DNA of 26,254 bases from a virus, in IMG/VR virus record IMGVR_UViG_3300027659_000184, positions 1 to 26,254 of that record. The stretch is one strand, 5' to 3'. The notes beneath the pieces were generated by a model. It ran no database searches. It had not been told where the DNA came from and was given only the letters and a program-made list of their open reading frames with translations. Position 1 is the first letter of the stretch; each line of letters starts with the position of its first letter. This document shows positions 282 through 26,254 of the stretch, piece after piece. A program made the translations under genes and the position numbers.

Positions 282-292
282 TAATATAGTTT
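282..292 (-). promoter_or_regulatory. Shared AAACTATATTA box, possible minus-strand -10 element (copy 1)
   Basis: The minus strand reads AAACTATATTA here, just upstream of the TTG-started 75-residue gene and overlapping the stop codon of the GT9-like gene. The identical 11 bases occur at 4258-4268 in front of the DUF115-like gene. Both sit in short gaps before a minus-strand start, which suggests a promoter -10 element, but no matching -35 is obvious and the genome is AT-rich. Confidence 0.2.
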
Positions 293-1259
293 ATGTTTTT
301 TCAGATTTGAACGGCCACTTCTTGAACATTTCATCTATTCCAGATATTATCTCCGTTTCAGTGATCTCTGTTAGGCATGGTTTGAGCTGTTTTCTTGACT
401 TAATACAGTTACCAAACTTGAAACATGGTCCACATTCCCAGTTCCCATTGTCTCTATGTTTTTGTATAAGCGTGAAATCATAATGCTTTCCATAAACCTT
501 TCCATCAGCAAAGGTAAATATACCACATAAAGGCTTTCGAAGACCCCCAGCGAGATGAAAGGCTGCGGTATCGACCGTTATCATGTAATCCATGCAGTCA
601 ACATAACATATAAAATCTTGTAGACCTAGACCGCTTAATGTCTGTATTCCATGTCTTTTGCATGATGAAAGCTCATCTTTGTGGAATGCTATGAGATTGT
701 GTTCGTTTAATTTATTTGCAATCCAACCAATCTGATTTTCTTGTAAACTTTTTGTTGCTATCTTTGAAGTTGGGGCGAAACCAATAAGCGCACCCGAGTT
801 TTTTTTCAATGATTGAATTCTTGACATTACTGATCTTTTGCGATCTTGGTCTATAACAAAGTGCATATCATGGCTTGTTAGGTTAAGACCACAGTATCTC
901 GCCCATATGTCACTCCTATGATCGTCATAGTTTGGAGCCTTGTGGTGTTCATAGCGATCCGCTATCGTAACGCAAGTATTTAACACACAGATATAATCTT
1001 CGTGGTTAACAGTTCTTGAATCCACAACATCATGGATATATGGATGATCTATTGCCGCATCTCTATATTCTGGAAGGCAAGCAAGCGTAAACTCACATTC
1101 GGGACACTCACGCTTTAGATCATCAAATATCATGCGTTGCATAAAAACATCGCCAAGACCACCCTTATCATGCCAAATAAGAACTTTATTTTTTCTTTCA
1201 TAAAATTCTTTAATGGTCAGAGTTTTCTTTTTGTAGTTTTTGGTTAGTAGTTCAGCCAT
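291..1259 (-). CDS. Glycosyltransferase family 9-like protein (ADP-heptose:LPS heptosyltransferase fold)
   Basis: This 322-residue protein looks like a GT-B fold glycosyltransferase of family 9, whose bacterial members add heptose to the LPS inner core. Residues 26-50 give the N-terminal Rossmann strand and the G-G-L-G-D loop (33-37; the Asp is the usual catalytic base position). Residues 156-165 begin the second domain, and residues 228-241 (T-V-D-T-A-A-F-H-L-A-G-G) match the family's donor-binding S/T-x-D-T-x-x-x-H-L-A motif with D230 and H235. A C-terminal four-cysteine set (C276, C279, C285, C295) is also found in phage and bacterial GT9 proteins. Length is near the family norm of about 320-350. 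The start has no clear Shine-Dalgarno sequence and lies directly after a terminator. The acceptor is unknown: it could be host LPS or a virion protein. Confidence 0.75.
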   Translation of the reverse strand: MAELLTKNYKKKTLTIKEFYERKNKVLIWHDKGGLGDVFMQRMIFDDLKRECPECEFTLACLPEYRDAAIDHPYIHDVVDSRTVNHEDYICVLNTCVTIADRYEHHKAPNYDDHRSDIWARYCGLNLTSHDMHFVIDQDRKRSVMSRIQSLKKNSGALIGFAPTSKIATKSLQENQIGWIANKLNEHNLIAFHKDELSSCKRHGIQTLSGLGLQDFICYVDCMDYMITVDTAAFHLAGGLRKPLCGIFTFADGKVYGKHYDFTLIQKHRDNGNWECGPCFKFGNCIKSRKQLKPCLTEITETEIISGIDEMFKKWPFKSEKT

Positions 1260-2651: not shown

Positions 2652-2745
2652 TCAATTAGGAGATGACGACATTTATAAGAGAATCTTGATTGAGGTTCTA
2701 TTTGAAGAGCTGATGCGAAATAAAGGAGATAAAAATGGCAAGTAA
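2593..2745 (+). CDS. Small acidic helical protein, 50 residues, plus-strand
   Basis: An ATG at 2593, seven bases after AAAGG, opens a 50-codon frame ending in TAA at 2743-2745. The product begins M-E-E-S-T-E-K-V and is acidic and probably helical (Q-L-G-D-D-D-I-Y-K-R-I-L-I-E-V-L-F-E-E-L). Its last codons overlap the start of the next plus-strand gene by 11 bases (ATGGCAAGTAA), and the AAAGGAG site of that gene lies inside it. The pair is therefore probably translated together. No family is recognised. It lies antisense to the 5' end of the preceding minus-strand frame. Confidence 0.55.
   Translation: MEESTEKVNVALEAFAVFSTQLGDDDIYKRILIEVLFEELMRNKGDKNGK
2670..2677 (-). promoter_or_regulatory. 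T4-late-like -10 box TATAAATG
   Basis: The minus strand reads TATAAATG, seven of eight bases of the T4 late box, about 20 bases before the GTG at 2651. It would start transcription of the 1989-2651 gene and favour the GTG start. The same bases are inside the plus-strand 50-residue frame, and the match may be by chance. Confidence 0.2.
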
Positions 2746-3103
2746 TTATACCGTGTGGATTTACCTTGGAAAGCGTGATAAAGATGGGATAAAGTTGGTG
2801 AGTCAATTTAAGGGAAAAAAGATTCTTGCCACTAGAATAAAAAATCTTTCCGAGATCAATATGCCAGCCGAATACTATGATGTGATACAAGGCATCATCT
2901 ATGAAAATAGGTTTTTATACGAACCATGGATTGAGTCTGCTGATGATTTCGCAAGCTTGCGTCAGACTCTTAAGCTTCGTGGTTACACAAACATACCAGT
3001 TGCCAATGTGCAGCTTTATGGAAGTATGTCATCTATATCAGCGCCTGAAATAAACACAACGAACATACCTCAAGCGGCGACTATGATAAGGAAGATCAAC
3101 TAA
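2735..3103 (+). CDS. Hypothetical phage protein, 122 residues, plus-strand
   Basis: The ATG at 2735 has an excellent ribosome site (AAAGGAG, six bases away). The product has an N-terminal beta segment (Y-T-V-W-I-Y-L-G-K-R), a mixed middle, and an S/T/N/P-rich C-terminal tail (S-M-S-S-I-S-A-P-E-I-N-T-T-N-I-P) typical of flexible virion segments. It has no membrane or signal sequence. With the upstream 50-residue gene it forms one of only two plus-strand islands in the window. Its end overlaps the end of the convergent 97-residue gene by eight bases. The function is unknown; a minor structural or assembly role is possible. Confidence 0.7.
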   Translation: MASNYTVWIYLGKRDKDGIKLVSQFKGKKILATRIKNLSEINMPAEYYDVIQGIIYENRFLYEPWIESADDFASLRQTLKLRGYTNIPVANVQLYGSMSSISAPEINTTNIPQAATMIRKIN

Positions 3104-3395: not shown

Positions 3396-4253
3396 CTATT
3401 TGAATATTTCTGGTAGTTCTTCTTCACTTATATATGTGGCATTATCAAAACTTGCTCCACTATCGTGGTGAAATGCTTCTGTAATGCTGTACTCTTCATT
3501 GTGTAACCAAAACAGCTTGGTGTCTATGAGGTCGTGAGCTATGTTTTGTTGTGGGTACTGATAAAGTCCGTTTTCAAGCTTTTCGGATCCTGGTCTTTCC
3601 CCAGCAAAACTATCATCACAGCAGAAAAGAACAATTTTAGATGCACCAAATATGTAGGCGCAATGTATGGCTGCGCATATTGGGTTCCTATAATCATCTA
3701 TGTGTTGCCTAGTATCATTAGAGAATTTTGATGTGTAAAGCGATTCGTGGACTGGCATATATTTGAAAACTTGACCCTTGTATGCGTGTAAGAAGTATGG
3801 GTTTGCACGCAATGATGCTATGCATTTTGGAAGTGCTCTTATTCTCTTGTTGAGGTACTTCATGCACTGCTGAAATGGATTGTTAACAAGATAGTAGTCC
3901 ATGATTCGACCAGGAACATTCCATTTCTGCAAGGATCCAAGAACGCCGATGATTCCAACATCTTTTGGAATCATTGACAAAAGATGTTGTTTCTTAGAGA
4001 AGTCATAACCATCAGATACTATCACAATGGTTTGGTGTTGAAAATTTTCATTTTCAAGCCATGTCAATCTTTGATTGCTATTTTGTACTTCATTTGCAAG
4101 AAATGTTTGTACTTCTTGTCTGCTGTATGTTGAATTGATATCTTTGGCCGGCGCATGGATATTGACAAAGTTGCGCACCCACATGCCATGGTTGGTCTTA
4201 GTGTATTGGTTGTTATCAGGATATGTCTTAATTCTTTTAATTTGGTTTTGCAT
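3396..4253 (-). CDS. Rossmann-like protein resembling DUF115/MptE and sialyltransferase-type enzymes
   Basis: This 285-residue protein has two features of the DUF115/6-hydroxymethylpterin pyrophosphokinase-like and GT42-like folds: a first strand ending in a loop (T-I-V-I-V-S-D-G-Y-D-F, residues 75-85), and a later segment of S/N-P-x-C-A-A-x-x-x-A-Y-x-F-G-A-x-K-I-V-L-F followed by C-C-D-D (residues 190-214). That layout matches the family's helix, 'lineage' strand and acidic end. In bacteria DUF115 proteins are often found with flagellin or surface glycan modification genes. The start has no good Shine-Dalgarno sequence nearby and shares the context TTAAAGCATG with the GT9-like gene. The exact reaction cannot be assigned; a role in sugar transfer is an inference from fold and neighbours. 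Confidence 0.45.
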   Translation of the reverse strand: MQNQIKRIKTYPDNNQYTKTNHGMWVRNFVNIHAPAKDINSTYSRQEVQTFLANEVQNSNQRLTWLENENFQHQTIVIVSDGYDFSKKQHLLSMIPKDVGIIGVLGSLQKWNVPGRIMDYYLVNNPFQQCMKYLNKRIRALPKCIASLRANPYFLHAYKGQVFKYMPVHESLYTSKFSNDTRQHIDDYRNPICAAIHCAYIFGASKIVLFCCDDSFAGERPGSEKLENGLYQYPQQNIAHDLIDTKLFWLHNEEYSITEAFHHDSGASFDNATYISEEELPEIFK

Positions 4254-4276: not shown

Positions 4277-7200
4277 TCACTCGCATGGCACTATAGCCAC
4301 GCATTGGCCTTTTTGGCTGTCTCCATTTAGCTTACTTATGTCAAGCTGTATCTTGACATCAATTGGAGATCCCTTGTAAACCATTTCAATTTCGGGCTTA
4401 TCTGGCATAACAAGTCTGATCTCACTTGGTATGGATCCTACCAACTCGATTTGTGGTGGTATGCCAACAACTTGTATCTTGTCTGGTATTTGGCTTGCGT
4501 CTATTCTGATTGTTCTTGGAAAATCGTTTGGCACTTCAAGCCTTATAAAATTCGGCATGTTTGACGCATCAATTGATATTACACTTGGCAAATTGTATGA
4601 AATTACCTTAATCTCGCTTGGTATATCTTCAGACCTAATTCTTATTTCGCTTGGGATATAAAGATCTGATATCATTTTGATGATTGATGGAATCTTTATT
4701 GATTCAACTTTGATGATTCCTGGAATATCATGGAGAATTTTTATGTCTGGAATTACTGGAGCTATGACTTTGATGATGCTTGGTATTCCAATATCTCCGA
4801 GATCAATATCTATGTTTGGGTCGGCATATGGATCTGCGTCAAGGGCAGCCATTGGCGTGCCGCTAGTTGGGCATTCTAATTTAATCACACAGCTTAGAGT
4901 TGGTGTTGTACCCCAATTTACGCTGACCGTTGGTGTTGGTCCAAATTCAATTTTGGAGAATGTTGGTACTGGCCCAAATTCAATTTTGGAGAATGTTGGC
5001 ACTGGCCCAAATTCAATCTGAGAGAATGTTGGCGCTGGTCCAAATTCAATCTGAGAGAATGTTGGGAATGGCCCAAATTCAATCTGAGAGAATGTTGGGA
5101 ATGGCCCAAATTCAATCTGAGAGAATGTTGGGAATGGCCCAAAATCAATTGTCGTTGGGAATGTTGGGAATGGCCCAAAATTTATAAGCGTCGGCAACGA
5201 TGGAGCAGGTCCAAAATTTATAAGCGTCGGGAATGATGGCGGTGGTCCAAAATTTATAAGCGTAGCAATTGATGGAGCTGGCCCAAATGTTATGACTGTA
5301 GCAATTGATGGAGCAGGTCCAAAATTTATAAGCGTTGGAAATGATGGAGCAGGTCCAAAATTTATAAGTGTCGGGAATGATGGCGGTGGTCCAAAATTTA
5401 TAATTGTAGCAATTGATGGAGCTGGCCCAAATGTTATGACTGTAGCAAACGATGGAGCAGGTCCAAAATTTATAAGCGTCGGGAATGATGGAGCTGGCCC
5501 AAATGTTATGAGTGTAGCAATTGATGGAGCTGGTCCAAAATTTATGAGCGTCGGGATCGATGGAGGTGGTCCAAATGTTATGAGTGTCGGGAACGATGGA
5601 GCTGGTCCAAAATTTATGAGCGTCGGGATGCTAATTGGGCCAAAAACAATTAAGGTCGGACAATTTAATGGACCAAAATTTATAAGAGTACATACTGGGA
5701 ATGGCCCAAAACCAATCATCGTTGGAATTTTTGATGGGCCGAAACCTATAACAGAAGGTAATGACGATGGCCCGAAAGTTATAGTAGACGAAATGTTTGA
5801 TGGCCCGAAAGTTATAGTAGACGGAATGTTTGATGGCCCAAACTGTATTGTTGAACAGAAGTTTGGCATTGGGCCAAATACTATTACGCTAGGGAATGAT
5901 ACTGGGCCAAAAACAATTACGCTAGGGAATGATACTGGGCCAAAAACAATTAAGGTTGGACAGTTTAATGGGCCAAAATTTATAAGAGTACATACTGGGA
6001 ATGGCCCAAAACCAATCATCGTTGGAATTTTTGATGGGCCGAAACCTATAGTGGATGGAAGGTTTGATGGCCCGAATCCTATAGTAGACGGAAGATTCGA
6101 TGGCCCGAAACCTATAGTAGACGGAATGTTTGATGGCCCGAACTGTATCGTTGAACAGAAGTTTGGCATTGGCCCAAAGACTATTACACTAGGGAATGAT
6201 GTTGGTCCAAAAACGATCAAAGTAGGGAATGATACTGGGCCAAAAACTATTGTGCTAGGGAATGATACTGGGCCAAAAACGATAAATGTTGGGCAATTTA
6301 GTGGACCGAAATTTATAAGAGTACATACTGGGAATGGCCCAAAATCAATCATCGTTGGGATTTTTGATGGACCGAAACCAATAACAGAAGGTAATGAAGA
6401 TGGCCCGAAAACTATAGTAGACGGAAGGTTTGATGGCCCGAAAACTATAGTAGATGGCAATGGCGCTGGTCCAAACTGTATCAAGGAACAGAAATTTGGT
6501 AGTGGACCAAAAACTATTACGCTAGGGAATGATACTGGACCAAAAACGATCAAAGTAGGAAATGACGCTGGGCCAAAAACTATTGTGCTAGGGAATGATA
6601 CTGGGCCAAAAACTATTAAGGTTGGACATATAATTGGTCCGAAATTAATCAAGCTACAAACTGGGAATGGCCCAAAATCAATTATCGTTGGGAATGTTGG
6701 TGGTGGCCCAAAGACTATTACACTAGGTAATGATGTTGGCCCAAAACTGATTATCGTTGGCAAAGTCACTGGCCCAAAACCGATGAGGCTACAGAAATTT
6801 GGTAGTGGCCCAAAACTGATTATCGTTGGCAAAGTCACTGGCCCAAAACCGATGAGGCTACAGAAATTTGGTAGTGGCCCAAAACTAATTATTGTCGGAA
6901 AACTCAGTGGCCCAAAACTAATTATTGTCGGAAAACTGATTGGTCCAAATTCAATTAATGTTGGACATATAATTGGTCCAAAATTAATCAAGCTACAAAC
7001 TGGGAATGGCCCAAAATCAATTATCGTTGGGAATGTCGGCAATGGCCCAAAAGTTACCATGGTTGGCAATACAGGCAATGGCCCAAAACTGATGATGCTG
7101 CAGAAATTTGGTAGTGGCCCAAAGACAATTACTGTCGGAAAACTGAATGGTCCAAAAACAATTACTGTCGGAAAACTGACTGGTCCAAATTCAATCAATG

Positions 7201-8335
7201 TTGGACATATAATTGGCCCAAAATTAATCAAACTACATACTGGGAATGGCCCAAAATCAATCATCGTTGGGAATGTCGGGAAATCCGGGAATACGATGCT
7301 TGGTAATGGAGGTGGTGGCCCAAAAGTTATCATGGTTGGCAATGGAGGTAGTGGCCCAAAACTTATAATGCTGCAGAAATTTGGCAGTGGATCAAATATG
7401 ATGACTGTTGGAAGTGGTGGATCAACGATGATTATCGAAGGAATACTCAGTGGTCCAAGAGGCCCGATGTCAAGGCATGGAAAAACAATCGGTGGTGGCT
7501 GGATGTTTATTGTTGGTATGATTGGATTTGGAAAATCCAAAGTTGGAATATCTGGTATGTTTGGTATGAGTATTTCTAATGGTGCATTTGCGATTTGAAT
7601 TACTGGTTGGGTCGCAATAGTTCTTTCGTATGGACTTTGAACTATGGTACACTTATCAGTACTAATTTGAACTACTGGATCTATTGTAGTGTTTGCTGCA
7701 TATGTGTGCGTACCACTCAATGATGTTGTCGTAAATTCGCCATCACCGAAGTCAATTCTGAAATTCTTATAGTTTCCAACAATCTCAATGTTATAGTTTA
7801 TGATTGTTCCAGCAGTTGGACTTTGAGAAACAACATTGTAGAAGAATGTAATGTCTGGACAAGTAAAGTCGTCAAATATGACTTCAAGTTCCGCAAGGTT
7901 ACGGATTCTCCAATCTAGTGTCGTTTTATCTGGTGTAAAATTATAGCCAACAAAATTTTCTATTTTGAGGATGGCATCGGCAATTTGGTTGTGATGTTCC
8001 GCCACAACAAAACCACGAACCTCAGATCCTACTTTGTTGAATTTCGTCTTGGTTCCACCAAGGTTTCTAACACAATTAATGAGCTGGTTAATTTTACCAT
8101 AGTTGTTCTTAGAAACGCCGGCGTAATAAAAAAGCTCCCCATTTATGTTGGCGAAACCATTTTCAGACCATATTTCGCATGCGGATGATCCAACTGGTAC
8201 GATGTCTATCGTTGCTTCCCAAGGATGGTTATCTACTGTCGTTATGGTCTCTGATGTGTTATAAACCAAGTACAATGTACGATCAGTATCGTATTGCTTT
8301 GGATACACAGGAATTGATGGAAAATTGCTGGACAT
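4277..8335 (-). CDS. Giant virion adhesin with shared N-terminal module, PKD domain and about 71 FGP repeats
   Basis: This 1352-residue protein has four parts. Residues 1-150 are an attachment module shared with the next two genes upstream (A-E-H-H-N at 112-116 after an F-Y-Y-A-G strand). Residues 160-245 are a PKD-type beta-sandwich (F-R-I-D-F-G-D-G, then H-T-Y). Residues about 250-1133 are an 11-12-residue repeat array, consensus x-F-P-T-x-I-x-F-G-P, with about 71 F-G-P copies from 326 to 1133. Residues about 1180-1335 continue the same beat with I-P-S-E-I-K/R-x units lacking FGP. One short hydrophobic strand plus a Gly-Pro turn per repeat suggests a long beta-solenoid or beta-spiral fibre. 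It is most likely a tail or whisker-type adhesin. The ribosome site is weak. I know no named family with this repeat. Confidence 0.85.
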   Translation of the reverse strand: MSSNFPSIPVYPKQYDTDRTLYLVYNTSETITTVDNHPWEATIDIVPVGSSACEIWSENGFANINGELFYYAGVSKNNYGKINQLINCVRNLGGTKTKFNKVGSEVRGFVVAEHHNQIADAILKIENFVGYNFTPDKTTLDWRIRNLAELEVIFDDFTCPDITFFYNVVSQSPTAGTIINYNIEIVGNYKNFRIDFGDGEFTTTSLSGTHTYAANTTIDPVVQISTDKCTIVQSPYERTIATQPVIQIANAPLEILIPNIPDIPTLDFPNPIIPTINIQPPPIVFPCLDIGPLGPLSIPSIIIVDPPLPTVIIFDPLPNFCSIISFGPLPPLPTMITFGPPPPLPSIVFPDFPTFPTMIDFGPFPVCSLINFGPIICPTLIEFGPVSFPTVIVFGPFSFPTVIVFGPLPNFCSIISFGPLPVLPTMVTFGPLPTFPTIIDFGPFPVCSLINFGPIICPTLIEFGPISFPTIISFGPLSFPTIISFGPLPNFCSLIGFGPVTLPTIISFGPLPNFCSLIGFGPVTLPTIISFGPTSLPSVIVFGPPPTFPTIIDFGPFPVCSLINFGPIICPTLIVFGPVSFPSTIVFGPASFPTLIVFGPVSFPSVIVFGPLPNFCSLIQFGPAPLPSTIVFGPSNLPSTIVFGPSSLPSVIGFGPSKIPTMIDFGPFPVCTLINFGPLNCPTFIVFGPVSFPSTIVFGPVSFPTLIVFGPTSFPSVIVFGPMPNFCSTIQFGPSNIPSTIGFGPSNLPSTIGFGPSNLPSTIGFGPSKIPTMIGFGPFPVCTLINFGPLNCPTLIVFGPVSFPSVIVFGPVSFPSVIVFGPMPNFCSTIQFGPSNIPSTITFGPSNISSTITFGPSSLPSVIGFGPSKIPTMIGFGPFPVCTLINFGPLNCPTLIVFGPISIPTLINFGPAPSFPTLITFGPPPSIPTLINFGPAPSIATLITFGPAPSFPTLINFGPAPSFATVITFGPAPSIATIINFGPPPSFPTLINFGPAPSFPTLINFGPAPSIATVITFGPAPSIATLINFGPPPSFPTLINFGPAPSLPTLINFGPFPTFPTTIDFGPFPTFSQIEFGPFPTFSQIEFGPFPTFSQIEFGPAPTFSQIEFGPVPTFSKIEFGPVPTFSKIEFGPTPTVSVNWGTTPTLSCVIKLECPTSGTPMAALDADPYADPNIDIDLGDIGIPSIIKVIAPVIPDIKILHDIPGIIKVESIKIPSIIKMISDLYIPSEIRIRSEDIPSEIKVISYNLPSVISIDASNMPNFIRLEVPNDFPRTIRIDASQIPDKIQVVGIPPQIELVGSIPSEIRLVMPDKPEIEMVYKGSPIDVKIQLDISKLNGDSQKGQCVAIVPCE
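4937..7360 (-). repeat. Coding tandem repeat, 33/36-base units encoding x-F-P-T-x-I-x-F-G-P
   Basis: Units alternate between 11 and 12 codons, so the period is 33 or 36 bases. A hand count gives 71 FGP units over 808 residues (mean 11.4). There are three blocks. Residues about 318-900 (bases 5636-7360 and slightly beyond) carry a higher-order repeat with cysteine-containing units. Residues 901-1067 (5135-5635) are mostly 12-residue units of type A-P-S-F-P-T-L-I-N-F-G-P. Residues 1068-1133 (4937-5134) are 11-residue units of type F-P-T-F-S-Q-I-E-F-G-P. The six F-P-V-C units begin 300, 333, 333, 339 and 240 bases apart, all multiples of three, as expected from in-frame duplication. Confidence 0.95.
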
Positions 8336-8359: not shown

Positions 8360-10624
8360 TTAAAAAATGGCCATGGCAAATTGATTGCCAGATGGCCTGT
8401 TTGATACACTGCTGAATGTTAGCGTTGTCTCATTGAACTTTATAAATGGCTTTGTGCTATAATCAAAGCTAAGATAAGCTACCTTATCTGAGTCCGAGGC
8501 CGCCATAAGCGTATTTGCTTGATTATCAAAATCAACAATAGAGTTATCTTGCAATAGCCTGAATGACGCCGAGTTTATCCCCGTGCCACCAGTTTCCCAA
8601 ATATCCGTAGTTGGATTGTAAGCCGATATTGCGCCTGTGTTGTTGAAGAAATAAACACCTTGGCTTAATGTAACCAGCTTGCCTTCAACTTTTGCCGGAC
8701 CAGCCATATCTGTTAGTTTCTTGATATCAAGAAAATACTCAGAGGTTGATCCAGATGTCTTATAAAAATTTTTGATCCTAAAGAATGTGCCAACACCTTG
8801 ATTCCTCAATATAAATCCAGCCGTATCCTTCCAGCATGACCTATAGACACTCATATGACCTTGTACTGGATCTCCTGAAGTGTTGTAGGTCACTTCGTTA
8901 TTTTTTAACTCTTGGGCGCCATTTTTGTAATTAGAAGTAGTAAGTGTGTCCGTGGTTACGGAGAGATCAGCAAGGGAAACTTTTGATTTTACTTGGTTGG
9001 TTAGACTGGTATTTGGTAGTTGGGAAGTTGTCAAACCACCAAATACAAAATAAAGGTTTGTATAACTGTAAAGATCAACCCAGTTCCATGGTCTGCTGAT
9101 CGGACTTTGAGTCAGATAGGTTTGGGTGAAACCATTGAATTCATTAATCTTTATTGTTTCATTAGAGGCTGAATCAGATGGACTTCTGCCCGAAGCGTAG
9201 TATAGCAACCCAACACCACCATTGCCACTGGCGGTTGTTCCACGGGGTGCAAATCCTGCATTTCTTTTAAATTCCATTTTTTGTTGAGCTTCATTGTTCT
9301 GACCATCCAAAAAGCTAATGTCTCTTGATACTGTTACTGGGTTCGTGAAGGTAGTTTTGAATGTCTCGCTAATCAAACCAAGCTCATAAGCATTGATCTG
9401 GTTTGTTGTAATGTAATTCCATAACCATAGATTGTATTTTTCTACGACATCTATGGATCCCTCATATGTCGTGATTCTGTATGATCCATACTGAGTATCG
9501 CACCTTAAGACAATGTTATAAATGCCACCGATACTGTAGGATCCTCTGACCGCCGATGTGTTAGTATGTGTGAGATCATCGGCGAGTGACCATGTGTAGC
9601 TTTCTACAGCATCTATAGGAACACCACCAGAAACCTCTTCCCCAACATAAGTCTTTCCTGTGTTTGGGTTTATGCCATTTGGAACTTCTGCATCAACAAA
9701 TGTGTTTACTGGTGTTCTTAAAACTGGAATTGTCGTATATGGACCATTTATTGGAAGACCAGTCCTAGCCAAAATCTGTCCTGTTCTCAAATTAAAATTG
9801 ATAACTGCTTCGTCGGGTGCTGCAACTCTTGCATTTATGAACTCTGGAAAAACTAAAGTATCAGATCCAAAGTCATTGGAAATTGTAAGACTAACATCAT
9901 ATATTCCAGGCCTGCTATAGACTTTGCTTACAGTGCCGCCATCCAAATCTTGAACAATAACATTGCTTTGTGTGACAGGTCCGCTAGTTGTACTTACTGT
10001 GACTATAGATGGGCCAGTGTTATCTCCAAAATCCCATATGTAGCTGATTACTCCGGTTGTGCCATCTGTACCAAGACGAAAACTAAGATCCTTGAACTCA
10101 ACCGTTAGAGGTATTAGGCCAATCTTATTGTTGGCGGTAAACCATGCCTTTGGAACTAGTGCAATTTTTCGGAGGTAGTTTATCCTTGCCTCCATGGTTC
10201 CAGTCAATGGTTGTTGGGCAATCTCGTTCTTTTTACCGGCAGTATGTTCGATCGCAATGATGGCATTTTTTAGTGCGTTGTGGTGCTCAGCCATTACATT
10301 CATGGTTATATGTGTTATGTCCCTTGGCTTGGCCACATCAACGAAGCAAGACAACAGTTCAAGATTATCAAATGAAACCGGAGTCTTACTTCCATAATAA
10401 AAGGTTATTGCACGGACATCGGCATCGCTGCATTGTTCCGTAAGCGTTATAAATCCAGAGTCTGGAAATCTGTTTATGATTTCGTTGTCACCATACACAA
10501 AAATTGATCTATCACCTGGGTTATAGTCTGCAGACAGTGTGACACGGAGACTATCATGGACAAGAAACAGAGTGTTGTCGTCATCAATGCTTGTAGGGAA
10601 TTTTACTGTTGATGGTATTACCAT
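8360..10624 (-). CDS. Virion adhesin: shared N-terminal module, PKD domains and Kelch-like propeller
   Basis: This is a 754-residue protein. Residues 1-150 are the attachment module shared with both neighbours (F-P-D-S-G-F-I-T-L, I-T-F-Y-Y-G, then M-A-E-H-H-N-A-L at 111-118). Residues 158-267 are a PKD domain (Y-I-W-D-F-G-D at 195-201, then S-R-P-G-I-Y-D-V-S-L-T-I). Residues 270-395 look like a second, more divergent PKD (S-Y-T-W-S-L-A-D-D, I-G-G-I-Y-N-I-V-L-R). From about 400 to the end, repeated short strands such as L-Y-F-V-F-G-G, V-Y-F-F-N-N-T-G and S-A-Y-N-P-T-T-D-I-W-E resemble Kelch/galactose-oxidase propeller blades. Such domains bind sugars or proteins on cell surfaces. The ATG overlaps the upstream gene's TAA by one base (TAATG). 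Confidence 0.75.
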   Translation of the reverse strand: MVIPSTVKFPTSIDDDNTLFLVHDSLRVTLSADYNPGDRSIFVYGDNEIINRFPDSGFITLTEQCSDADVRAITFYYGSKTPVSFDNLELLSCFVDVAKPRDITHITMNVMAEHHNALKNAIIAIEHTAGKKNEIAQQPLTGTMEARINYLRKIALVPKAWFTANNKIGLIPLTVEFKDLSFRLGTDGTTGVISYIWDFGDNTGPSIVTVSTTSGPVTQSNVIVQDLDGGTVSKVYSRPGIYDVSLTISNDFGSDTLVFPEFINARVAAPDEAVINFNLRTGQILARTGLPINGPYTTIPVLRTPVNTFVDAEVPNGINPNTGKTYVGEEVSGGVPIDAVESYTWSLADDLTHTNTSAVRGSYSIGGIYNIVLRCDTQYGSYRITTYEGSIDVVEKYNLWLWNYITTNQINAYELGLISETFKTTFTNPVTVSRDISFLDGQNNEAQQKMEFKRNAGFAPRGTTASGNGGVGLLYYASGRSPSDSASNETIKINEFNGFTQTYLTQSPISRPWNWVDLYSYTNLYFVFGGLTTSQLPNTSLTNQVKSKVSLADLSVTTDTLTTSNYKNGAQELKNNEVTYNTSGDPVQGHMSVYRSCWKDTAGFILRNQGVGTFFRIKNFYKTSGSTSEYFLDIKKLTDMAGPAKVEGKLVTLSQGVYFFNNTGAISAYNPTTDIWETGGTGINSASFRLLQDNSIVDFDNQANTLMAASDSDKVAYLSFDYSTKPFIKFNETTLTFSSVSNRPSGNQFAMAIF

Positions 10625-11673
10625 TATTGCACCACTATGCTTTCGCTGAGGAATGTGCGCTTGGTTGTTGAAGTCTCTAATATGGTCATGAGACCTGGTC
10701 TGTAGTCTCCAGGCTTATCAAAAATAAACTTAATCTCATGCTTGTTTGGATTGTTTTCTTGGTAGCTTTGATTTGCAACTGGTATTCCTTCTACAGTTCC
10801 ATCACCGCCAAATATCCAATACCTTTGCACTATATCACCATCAGTTTGATCGATAATCCTGAACTCTGTTGGATCTATTGACATAGCATTTGCTGTCTCA
10901 AGAGAGTAGCCTGTTCTTGGAGTCACATAGAAAAAACTATTGATTTCTTGCTTGCTTACTGTGATGTAATTGCTCTTTGTTGTTATTCCTTGGGCGCCAA
11001 GTATCGAAACAATGTTCAGTTGTACTGTGTATATGCCTTCGGACTGATAGGTGTGTGTTGGATTTTTCTCTACGGATGTGGCTCCATCGCCAAAGTCCCA
11101 AAGATATCTTACAAGAGGGCCAGTACTGAAATTCTGGAATCTTACTTTTAATGGTGGTTGACCAATAATCTTGCTTGCCCTAAATATGGCTTTTGGTGCC
11201 AAGAATATGTTCTCTTGGCGCTTTAAGATTCCATTTAAAGATCCAGTCGTTGGATCAATATTGGTGCCAAGGTCTGTCTCGATGTTGTGTATTGCGTCTC
11301 TTAGGGCATTGTGATGCTCGGCCATTACGCTATGACTGACAGTTGTTGTCGCAGGCCAAATTGTTTGGCGTGAACCAACGAATCCACGGACTAGGTTGTA
11401 AAATACACCTTCATTCTTGTTGCCATAATAGATTATTTCATAGTTTCCGGCTTTTCCTGGTGGTGGCCCAAGTCTGATTAATCCCCTTGTCGGGAAACTA
11501 TCGTTGTTATCGACAATGATATACTTACCATTAAATGACAAAGATTGCTTCATAACGGTTTGTGCGTTATTCTTTGCTTCATACAGAGTCTCTTTGTCGT
11601 CAAGGTTTAGCGGAAATGCCGACAGACTTCCTATAGAATAGCCAGGTGTCAGTGTTGAAATTCTAGTTGTCAT
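10624..11673 (-). CDS. Virion protein: shared N-terminal module and two PKD domains
   Basis: This 349-residue protein is the shortest member of the three-gene family. Residues 1-155 are the common attachment module (F-P-T-R-G-L-I-R-L, Y-E-I-I-Y-Y-G, V-M-A-E-H-H-N-A-L at 116-124, then A-I-H-N-I-E). Residues 160-240 are a clear PKD domain (Y-L-W-D-F-G-D-G at 190-197, H-T-Y-Q-S-E-G-I-Y-T-V-Q-L). Residues 245-349 form a second PKD-like sandwich (Y-W-I-F-G-G-D-G, D-K-P-G-D-Y). It has no long C-terminal effector part, so it may be a base or spacer on which the longer paralogues are modelled. The start overlaps the end of the coiled-coil gene by 11 bases, and its stop is joined to the next start through TAATG. 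Confidence 0.75.
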   Translation of the reverse strand: MTTRISTLTPGYSIGSLSAFPLNLDDKETLYEAKNNAQTVMKQSLSFNGKYIIVDNNDSFPTRGLIRLGPPPGKAGNYEIIYYGNKNEGVFYNLVRGFVGSRQTIWPATTTVSHSVMAEHHNALRDAIHNIETDLGTNIDPTTGSLNGILKRQENIFLAPKAIFRASKIIGQPPLKVRFQNFSTGPLVRYLWDFGDGATSVEKNPTHTYQSEGIYTVQLNIVSILGAQGITTKSNYITVSKQEINSFFYVTPRTGYSLETANAMSIDPTEFRIIDQTDGDIVQRYWIFGGDGTVEGIPVANQSYQENNPNKHEIKFIFDKPGDYRPGLMTILETSTTKRTFLSESIVVQ

Positions 11674-12432: not shown

Positions 12433-12936
12433 ATGCTTAATGGTTCAAAGGCTTATTTAAGCGGTCCTATGGAGTTCAGCAATGGCGATTATCGCACACA
12501 ACCAGCAATAGAATTGCTCAAAACATTCGGTATTCAGGTTTTTGACCCAGCTCTTGACCCTAAGGAGCAATGGGTTCCAGATATCAAGCAAGCAAAAGCC
12601 GACAAGGACTACATGCGTATAAAGTCAATAGCGGAGAGATTTTTTCGCAAAGATCTTGGTATGTTGTACCAATGTGATATGACTATTGCTTTTTTGCCAT
12701 ATAAAGTGCCAACAGTTGGAACACATCATGAAATTATTGAAAGTTGGAGATGCATGAAGCCAACCCTCCTTGTCTGCCCCGATGGCATAGAGAACATACC
12801 TGTTTGGTATTTTGGCTTTATGCCACTCGAACACATGTTTTCTTCTTGGGATTCTCTTTATGATTATCTTCGCCGTGTAGATAGCGGAGACGCATATGAT
12901 GATACATGGTATATCTTACGCCAGAAATCAGATTAA
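12433..12936 (+). CDS. Nucleoside 2-deoxyribosyltransferase-like protein
   Basis: This 167-residue protein has the hallmarks of the nucleoside 2-deoxyribosyltransferase/DUF4406 superfamily, which cleaves or exchanges the N-glycosidic bond of (deoxy)nucleosides or nucleotides. Residues 7-13 (A-Y-L-S-G-P-M) are the N-terminal strand and phosphate/ribose loop. D82 lies in the C-D-M-T-I-A-F-L strand, and G96-T97-H98-H99-E100 matches the family's G-T-x-x-E segment, whose Glu is the nucleophile. Length fits the family. It stands alone on the plus strand with its own AAAGGAG site, and its end overlaps the end of the convergent glycosyltransferase-like gene by nine bases. Roles in nucleotide salvage or in handling modified or signalling nucleotides are possible; the substrate cannot be told. 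Confidence 0.7.
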   Translation: MLNGSKAYLSGPMEFSNGDYRTQPAIELLKTFGIQVFDPALDPKEQWVPDIKQAKADKDYMRIKSIAERFFRKDLGMLYQCDMTIAFLPYKVPTVGTHHEIIESWRCMKPTLLVCPDGIENIPVWYFGFMPLEHMFSSWDSLYDYLRRVDSGDAYDDTWYILRQKSD

Positions 12937-14341: not shown

Positions 14342-14512
14342 TTAATTGGTTATTTTTTTGAACTGATCCTTAAGGCGCTCGATGAGTGCTTTGGTATCAA
14401 TTTTCTTTTTATCTATGTGGTTCTGCTTGAAAATGAAGGTGCGTTTTCGCAACTTCTTTATATTGTTCTCAGCTGGTGTTTGATTTGCTTTCTTATCAAG
14501 CCAATAGTTCAT
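14342..14512 (-). CDS. Small basic protein, 56 residues, coupled to the SET-domain gene
   Basis: The ATG at 14512 lies inside the ATGA stop/start overlap with the SET-domain gene and has GGGAG seven bases upstream. The frame runs 56 codons to TAA at 14342. The product is lysine- and arginine-rich (K-K-L-R-K-R-T, H-I-D-K-K-K-I, L-I-E-R-L-K-D-Q-F-K-K) and probably helical, with no membrane segment. Translational coupling to the SET gene suggests the two act together; a lysine-rich partner could be a methylation substrate, which is speculation. No family is recognised. Confidence 0.65.
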   Translation of the reverse strand: MNYWLDKKANQTPAENNIKKLRKRTFIFKQNHIDKKKIDTKALIERLKDQFKKITN

Positions 14513-15027
14513 AAAATTCTCCCAAGTTCGTAAAGGTTAAGCTCAAGAAAATTTTGCCAATCCTTTTTGTCTGTCTTGTTGGACTCATGCTGCTTCTGCA
14601 TCCAGCTGAGCAAGTTCTGCCAGTTATCGCCATAGTTGCCAAGTATTTCTTCATCCTTGGCCACATCACGCAGAAACACATAGGCTATGCTCTCGTTGCC
14701 CATGCTTTCTATCTGTACATTTCTTTTTGACTCTTCATCCATATGGTTTACCATACCAGAAAAGCCAAGTGGTATAACCATCTTGTTGCCAGCAACTAAT
14801 TCGCCATTTCCAAGCTGTATGACATCTAGAGCGAACTTGTAATTGTTTGCGTATGTTGTACATTTATCAGCGTATGAATTCTTCTCAACAACCACACCAC
14901 TGATATCTATTTTTTCGCCCTTACTTATTTTGTGACGGGCAAATAGTCCCTTACCAGCGCCTTTTATGGTTGAATCACTGATGTAGAACCTGTTGTCGTT
15001 CTCGTCGTATCTGAGCGATTTGCTCAT
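14509..15027 (-). CDS. SET-domain protein (protein lysine methyltransferase-like)
   Basis: The 172-residue protein shows the ordered SET-domain motifs. Residues 20-40 hold the SAM-binding loop, I-K-G-A-G-K-G-L-F-A followed by I-S-K-G-E. Residues 88-95 (L-G-F-S-G-M-V-N-H) match the R-F-I/L-N-H element that forms the pseudoknot. Residues 116-136 (Y-V-F-L-R-D-V-A-K-D-E-E-I-L-G-N-Y-G) match the A-x-R-D-I-x-x-G-E-E-L-x-x-D-Y-G motif carrying the catalytic tyrosine. There are no pre- or post-SET cysteine clusters, as in other compact bacterial and viral SET proteins. The family transfers methyl groups from S-adenosylmethionine to protein lysines. It is embedded in the structural operon: TAATG overlap upstream, ATGA overlap downstream. 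The target could be a virion or host protein. Confidence 0.8.
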   Translation of the reverse strand: MSKSLRYDENDNRFYISDSTIKGAGKGLFARHKISKGEKIDISGVVVEKNSYADKCTTYANNYKFALDVIQLGNGELVAGNKMVIPLGFSGMVNHMDEESKRNVQIESMGNESIAYVFLRDVAKDEEILGNYGDNWQNLLSWMQKQHESNKTDKKDWQNFLELNLYELGRIL

Positions 15028-25604: not shown

Positions 25605-26254
25605 TTATTTCGTTCCGGCTCCGATGTTTGATACTTGCTTGCCTGATGTCTGCATGAAGGCTCCATATGCCCACTTAGCATTCATGTATGGCTTATTCAT
25701 TGTTTTTCTTGACGATGTATCTGCATCTGGTGCCGAACCACCACCAGACGACATACTTTCTCCACCACCCATGGCATCAACTAACTTAGTTAGAAGCTCA
25801 ACCATTTGCTCATTCAGTATTGTTTGCTGTGATGTTTCGTTGGCTATATCACTCAACTCTGGAGAACCAACATTTGTCGATCCTGGCTCAGATGTAACTT
25901 TATCCCTTTGCACCATGTCTTGTGTTCCTATACCTGGCGGAACAACTGTAGCAACCGATGGCGAGGTTGCAAGTTCACTAGCTATGCTTGATTGAATTCC
26001 TAATGGCTCTATTAGTCCTTTGACGCTTGATCCGATGGATCCTATTATTGAATCTGGACCATCAAAAAGAGAAGAAAGTGTTGTGCTTACATTTTCCATG
26101 ACATCTTGATCTGATGTCTTGGAAAGACTTGCTTGCGCTCCTCCCATTGCCTTCTCATCTGAGCCAGATCCGAATAGCCAACCACCAACGGATGAGGCCA
26201 TGCTGCCAATTAATTTTGCTGGTGCAGTTGCGATGTCAAAGGCCGTGCTTGCAA
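25605..26254 (-). CDS. C-terminal part of a larger tail protein, possibly tape measure, cut by the window edge
   Basis: The frame stays open from 25605 (TAA) to the window edge. The internal ATG at 26201 is not a likely start: upstream codons continue in the same style (A-S-T-A-F-D-I-A-T-A-P-A-K-L-I-G-S) and there is no ribosome site. The visible 216 residues are rich in S, G, T and A (W-L-F-G-S-G-S-D, G-G-G-E-S-M-S-S-G-G-G-S), with an amphipathic helix (N-E-Q-M-V-E-L-L-T-K-L-V-D-A-M) and a basic, aromatic end (Y-M-N-A-K-W-A-Y-G-A-F). Its place before the tube-junction and LysM-like genes is where tape measure genes end in P2- and T4-type tails. A structural linker or chaperone-bound protein is an alternative. 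Confidence 0.5.
   Translation of the reverse strand, partial: ASTAFDIATAPAKLIGSMASSVGGWLFGSGSDEKAMGGAQASLSKTSDQDVMENVSTTLSSLFDGPDSIIGSIGSSVKGLIEPLGIQSSIASELATSPSVATVVPPGIGTQDMVQRDKVTSEPGSTNVGSPELSDIANETSQQTILNEQMVELLTKLVDAMGGGESMSSGGGSAPDADTSSRKTMNKPYMNAKWAYGAFMQTSGKQVSNIGAGTK

Follow-up and report, generated by a model that had tools for sequence, protein, structure and literature searches.

An uncatalogued proline-isoleucine repeat in a baseplate-region protein of huge phages, probably a tail fiber with a length-variable stalk

What kind of protein sets 71 copies of one short motif in a row among the tail genes of a phage, and what might hold such an array in place? The question is posed by a 1352-residue protein, here called the array protein, encoded in a stretch of viral DNA of 26,254 nucleotides (positions 1 to 26,254 of IMG/VR record IMGVR_UViG_3300027659_000184; hereafter the window). 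Our analysis indicates a repeat that no catalogued family covers, in a protein that is conserved in the baseplate region of huge phages and is most likely a tail fiber with a length-variable stalk; the surprising part is the coupling of its length to that of the tape-measure protein. On balance, we favor the reading that it is a virion fiber of a huge contractile-tailed phage lineage, anchored at the baseplate, with a stalk matched to the tail. The gene and its parts are as follows.

4277 to 8335, minus strand: array protein gene (ATG start; 1352 residues; open frame with zero internal stops)
7886 to 8335, minus strand: N-terminal attachment-like module, residues 1-150 (within-window matches to 11038-11463, E 7e-9, and 10229-10618, E 8e-6)
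7640 to 7858, minus strand: PKD-like domain, about residues 160-232, with a DFGDG motif (family profile and predicted fold)
4937 to 7360, minus strand: FGP array, residues 326-1133 (71 copies of an 11/12-residue unit by direct count; 33/36-bp DNA tandem repeats)
4280 to 4927, minus strand: conserved C-terminal part, residues 1137-1352 (mainly P-x-x-I units spaced by 10-12 residues; invariant P and I alignment columns)

The first-pass annotation of this DNA, which described about 71 F-G-P repeats of 11 to 12 residues, was accurate in its count: 71 FGP motifs lie between residues 326 and 1131, with 70 spacings that comprise 46 of 11 residues, 23 of 12 and one of 23. Composition-matched shuffling of the region (2000 trials) yields a mean of 2.4 such motifs and a maximum of 10. 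All 69 regular units have the F, G, P and one Ser/Thr, and 68 have Ile, with Val in the other. The motif draws on two Phe, four Gly and two Pro codons, and 50 of 70 unit sequences are distinct; thus, it has been maintained at the protein level and is not merely the outcome of recent DNA duplication. An open reading frame of 768 residues antisense to the array (5292-7598, plus strand) is likewise full of G-P repeats and was rejected as a gene: it is an artifact, because the Gly-Pro codon pair GGNCCN is palindromic and reads Gly-Pro on the opposite strand. The annotators' statement that they knew of no named repeat family with this consensus stands, in that Pfam, NCBIfam and PHROG gave no significant match covering the array and PDB no sequence match to it.

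Successive scans of IMG/VR recovered 10, then 58 and then 196 relatives of the array protein (80 of the 196 were kept), all from uncultured phage contigs with sizes of up to 532 kb. Among 50,697 phage records searched by tblastn, only that of the 595-kb uncultured phage LR756511 has a true relative, and GTDB genomes gave one match (locus L078), on contig RXKI01000071 of a Neisseriaceae metagenome-assembled genome, which carries the same phage tail genes; its placement there is possibly a hint of the host or a binning error. A match in a Mannheimia phage was rejected as compositional, for it aligns to the strand opposite the hypothetical protein of that phage, and a match to the Pfam WSN family in one relative (L005) was dropped because it lacked a significant stretch.

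Across the family, the N-terminal 250 and the C-terminal 220 residues are conserved, and the array between them is replaced almost wholesale. FGP units are seen in the close relatives, while elsewhere the units read IPTEITVVVPD (L008), LPDNIPLFDD (L010), IPTAITITPVN (L042, a protein of 2049 residues) or FDCISFCxPPS (L068 and L075). Common to all is the unit [ILF]-P-[ST]-x-I-x-[FILV], with a period of 10, 11 or 12 in 956 of 1364 spacings and with Ile in 96%. FGP is merely a local decoration of the family-wide unit; the F-G-P consensus initially proposed holds for the window's array, but it does not define the family, whose consensus is P-[ST]-x-I-x-hydrophobic. Even the Ser/Thr position is not fixed: in some relatives up to 46% of units have Asp/Asn there, and the share with Ser/Thr drops to as little as 18%. 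The supposedly distinct C-terminus proved to be a continuation of the array, with roughly twelve P-x-x-I units at intervals of 10-12 residues in the window, and throughout the family this part is built from the same units, as seen in the invariant P and I alignment columns. Otherwise identical sequences differ by whole units, namely 33 bp between L008 and L009 and 36 bp between L035 and L036. Cysteine-rich arrays, with FDCISFC or FCEPPSF units, occur in L068, L070, L071, L072 and L075 (84-104 Cys after residue 250) and in L001 (27 Cys); these are perhaps disulfide ladders, for which phage Milano, whose tail is disulfide-linked (PMC10811340), offers a comparison.

In three divergent relatives, the array has given way to something else: a Pro-rich linker with RCC1-like and kelch-like propellers (L171, 4986-11021), a VPPTP polyproline stalk with a kelch-like part (L165, 4965-7757), and a PTPQPTP stalk with a Cys-rich tip (L154, 4977-8027). 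The same N-terminal module, conserved in every orthologue aligned, precedes the array, propeller and polyproline-stalk versions, which together have the look of a modular adhesin plan comprising anchor, stalk and tip. This module is further common to the two PKD proteins encoded beside the array protein, in agreement with the earlier proposal of an attachment module with a PKD domain next to two other adhesins. The PKD domain of the array protein itself falls below the Pfam threshold (E 0.19), though it is real: positions 185-228 of the family profile match collagenase PKD domains (E 0.012 and weaker), and residues 160-232 of the orthologue in L060 are predicted by AlphaFold2 (AF2) with a predicted local distance difference test score (pLDDT) of about 71-88 and find PKD matches in BFVD. 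The neighboring genes to which the argument refers are the following.

8360 to 10624, minus strand: PKD protein 2, with the same N-terminal module as the array protein (PF18911, E 3e-11)
10624 to 11673, minus strand: PKD protein 1, with the same N-terminal module as the array protein (PF18911, E 8e-18)
3396 to 4253, minus strand: MptE-like (DUF115/Maf-related) putative glycosyltransferase, next downstream of the array gene (PF01973, E 3.7e-6, below the curated cut-off)
291 to 1259, minus strand: glycosyltransferase family 9-like (GT9-like) gene (PF01075, E 1.6e-5, above the cut-off)
25605 to 26252, minus strand: tape-measure protein, C-terminal portion only, truncated where the contig stops (the relatives' long upstream gene has a homologous C-terminus)

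Gene order is fixed across the loci: a gp6-like wedge gene, tail proteins, a 230-residue protein, PKD1, PKD2, the array gene, the MptE-like gene, small genes, p1321 and the GT9-like gene. Thus, the homologues in phage tail loci that the first-pass annotation anticipated do exist, beside baseplate genes. Of 60 loci, 59 have the MptE-like gene directly downstream of the array gene, and the remaining one ends inside the array; the GT9-like gene is found in 38 of 60, several of the others being truncated. A clade with short, irregular arrays (L045, L051-L055, L057 and L059-L065) is one where neither the GT9-like gene nor a gene designated p1989 was found; going by this clade, array regularity and the GT9 gene are possibly linked.

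The long protein encoded upstream of the baseplate genes is homologous in all loci examined and is the tape measure, one homologue matching the PHROG "tail length tape measure protein" (E 4.5e-21) and, below threshold, PF10145 PhageMin_Tail (E 3.9e-5). In 23 loci with arrays that are not Cys-rich, the lengths of array protein and tape measure are strongly correlated (r=0.86, rho=0.76, slope 2.37±0.31 residues per residue), and the correlation persists in independent contrasts that use a tree built from the N-terminal module (r=0.72 on log and 0.78 on linear lengths, p 1e-4 to 1e-5). Extrapolated to the window's phage, the fit gives a predicted tape measure of very roughly 3700 residues. With all 28 loci, including the Cys-rich clade, in which the coupling is absent, r falls to 0.55 (contrasts r=0.53-0.62, p 0.004-0.0005). 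The lengths of PKD1 and PKD2 show no trend with the tape measure (r=-0.19 and -0.12), and that of the MptE-like protein shows a weaker one (r=0.51) over a narrow range of 274-313 residues.

Together, these observations favor a length-matched baseplate fiber: the gene order is fixed beside wedge, tail and PKD genes; the N-terminal module is common to three neighbors, with both ends kept while the array is swapped; three divergent relatives have Pro-rich stalks bearing propellers or a Cys-rich tip in its place; and whole units come and go as array length, unlike that of PKD1 and PKD2, tracks the tape measure. The conserved N-terminal module would fix the protein to the baseplate, followed by the PKD domain and then by the array, whose P-[ST]-x-I-x-hydrophobic units would form a long, Pro-stiffened strand-and-turn stalk that probably needs an oligomer or the surface of a partner to become ordered, with the conserved C-terminal units as its cap. 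Selection may act solely on structural spacing, i.e., one short strand and a Pro turn per 10-12 residues, and so leave the surface residues (FGP, TITP, DDLPDN, CxxxC) free to drift. Gain and loss of whole units would alter the length of the protein and adjust it to that of the tail. Such matching would be expected of a fiber that lies against the tail, folded back, until adsorption and presumably contacts the host; the tail fibers of phage A-1(L) fold back along a groove of the sheath (PMC10966104).

Several observations weigh against this reading. The array proteins of the Cys-rich clade (L068, L071, L072 and L075) have 1370-1500 residues and their tape measures only 1058-1983, and this clade was set apart after the data had been seen. 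Array and tape-measure lengths in L152 (633/2705) and L143 (1039/1947) deviate from the trend, and L063 and L064, with near-identical array genes and the same array length, have tape measures of 1843 and 1682 residues, 161 apart. The correlation weakened as loci were added, from rho 0.98 with 10 to 0.76 with 23, and since the contigs are metagenomic, repeat counts may be mis-assembled. The records are uncultured, and we infer the presence of the protein in the virion. Finally, AF2 yields no confident fold for the array: for residues 900-1352, modeled with 42 family members, it repeats 4-residue strands at 12-residue intervals through the FGP part at a pLDDT of about 68 and scores most of the C-terminal part below 50, while in the full-length L060 orthologue the imperfect array is unfolded (about 30-40) next to a well-predicted PKD domain, and the C-terminal units form separate short strands.

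The best of the alternatives, unlikely as we consider it, has the array stretched out along the tail, with one unit docked by its I-x-hydrophobic strand on each ring of tube or sheath and the Pro-rich stretch bridging to the next ring; the array would then serve as a second ruler or would brace the tail over its whole length. The slope given above amounts to about 26 tape-measure residues per 10.8-residue unit (25.7±4.0 by direct count in 10 loci), and tail rings with a rise of 36-42.8 Å (PMC8570332) would need 24-28.5 residues at 1.5 Å per helical residue. This nearness to one unit per ring is suggestive but depends on L042, without which the slope is 3.1 per residue (about 33 per unit); moreover, the intercept is large. 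An extended chain of 10-12 residues is about 34-41 Å long, both ends of the protein are conserved and the strands predicted for L060 lack intramolecular packing, all of which would suit such a ladder. However, 10-residue units barely span 36 Å, the Cys-rich clade and the polyproline-stalk relatives do not fit, and a chain bound to the sheath must survive contraction. A fiber matched in length to the tail, like those that fold back along the sheath (PMC10966104), is the simpler reading. We are more doubtful still of a second length-matched tail protein in the form of a strand-turn ladder lining the huge-phage tail, with about one 10-12-residue unit per ring and a unit number that co-evolves with the tape measure.

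Comparably doubtful is a sugar-coated, flexible fiber, in which the neighboring MptE/Maf-like enzyme would O-glycosylate the Ser/Thr after the unit Pro. The Maf flagellin-glycosylation factors are themselves MptE-like proteins, a kinship that would make glycosylation of the fiber plausible. The near-constant adjacency of the MptE-like gene, the GT9-like gene nearby and the invariance of Ser/Thr in 69 of 69 window units speak for it, and two reports (PMC4065374, PMC9298399) implicate Maf proteins in flagellin glycosylation. Yet the MptE-like match lies below the Pfam cut-off, the enzyme may act on something else, and the frequent Asp/Asn at the Ser/Thr position in some relatives means that a turn-capping role explains it too. 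Least probable is the solenoid adhesin that the first-pass annotation had proposed, each turn being made of one unit or two: the regular strands of the FGP model and its Foldseek neighbors in PDB, mainly left-handed beta-helix proteins, point that way, but no neighbor is significant (best E 0.2, TM about 0.1), BFVD likewise gave none for the array, its only matches of note being to the PKD domain of the orthologue, the pLDDT is modest, the L060 array is unfolded, polyproline arrays of relatives cannot be solenoids, and AF2 tends to invent solenoids for near-perfect repeats (PMC11795689), which leaves a monomeric solenoid unsupported and a shaft whose folding requires an oligomer or a partner as what would be the simpler reading of the models.

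Three further genes of the region deserve mention. A SET-domain protein (14509-15027, minus strand; PF00856, E 9e-9) is encoded in the tail gene cluster of the window and its close relatives alone. On the strand opposite the tail genes lie a nucleoside 2-deoxyribosyltransferase-like gene (12433-12936, plus strand), whose position is conserved in 20 of 60 loci, and a 122-residue gene (2735-3103, plus strand), conserved in position in 57 of 60.

If fiber length indeed follows the tape measure, phage tails would have a second, independent length-matched component. Moreover, orthologues that keep their ends while their arrays drift to an extreme degree amount to a natural experiment on what a fiber stalk requires. 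We found no description in the literature of FGP repeats, of DNRLRE in phage tails or of fiber length in relation to tail length.

How new, then, is the architecture? The repeat class is uncatalogued, but the proposal of a new fiber architecture is tempered by similar repeats in cultured phages: the array profile matches gp139 of Brevibacillus phage Jenst (E 1.5e-10), ORF173 of Psychrobacillus phage Perkons (1.1e-9) and, weakly, gp367 of Bacillus phage G (E 1.3e-3), against a best value of 0.5 in shuffled and reversed controls. The repeat is thus not confined to the window's protein, since similar ones occur in cultured Firmicutes phages. Their unit, [ILV]-x-[ST]-x-I-x-V, of about 11-13 residues, is like that of the array protein; unlike it, these proteins have a DNRLRE/CBM96-type domain, other ends and fewer prolines. 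Those of Perkons and Jenst match DNRLRE-type sequences, and profile searches detected the domain in Perkons but not in the window's array protein and the relatives tested. The similarity could reflect either descent or convergence, as far as the sequences tell, and no solved structure of the DNRLRE-phage repeat was found.

Among characterized fibers, the A-1(L) LTF/gp34 and the T4 long tail fibers resemble the fiber proposed here in being attached to the baseplate, with a tail-related length and a conserved attachment end; however, the A-1(L) fibers are short, structured trimers with no sequence similarity to it, whereas its middle is a simple repeat. The triple beta-spiral shafts of adenovirus fiber and reovirus sigma1 are thin and trimeric and, like the array, are made from brief repeating units in which hydrophobic residues alternate and Gly/Pro form the turns. 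Their repeat has 15 residues and two strands, and that of the array 10-12 residues and one short strand; the array has no sequence match in PDB. Like phage tape-measure proteins, the array protein may vary in length in register with the tail, if tape-measure length is taken as a proxy and the Cys-rich clade is set aside. Unlike the helical tape measure, it is a Pro/Ile strand-turn repeat, encoded among baseplate and fiber genes beside a separate tape-measure gene.

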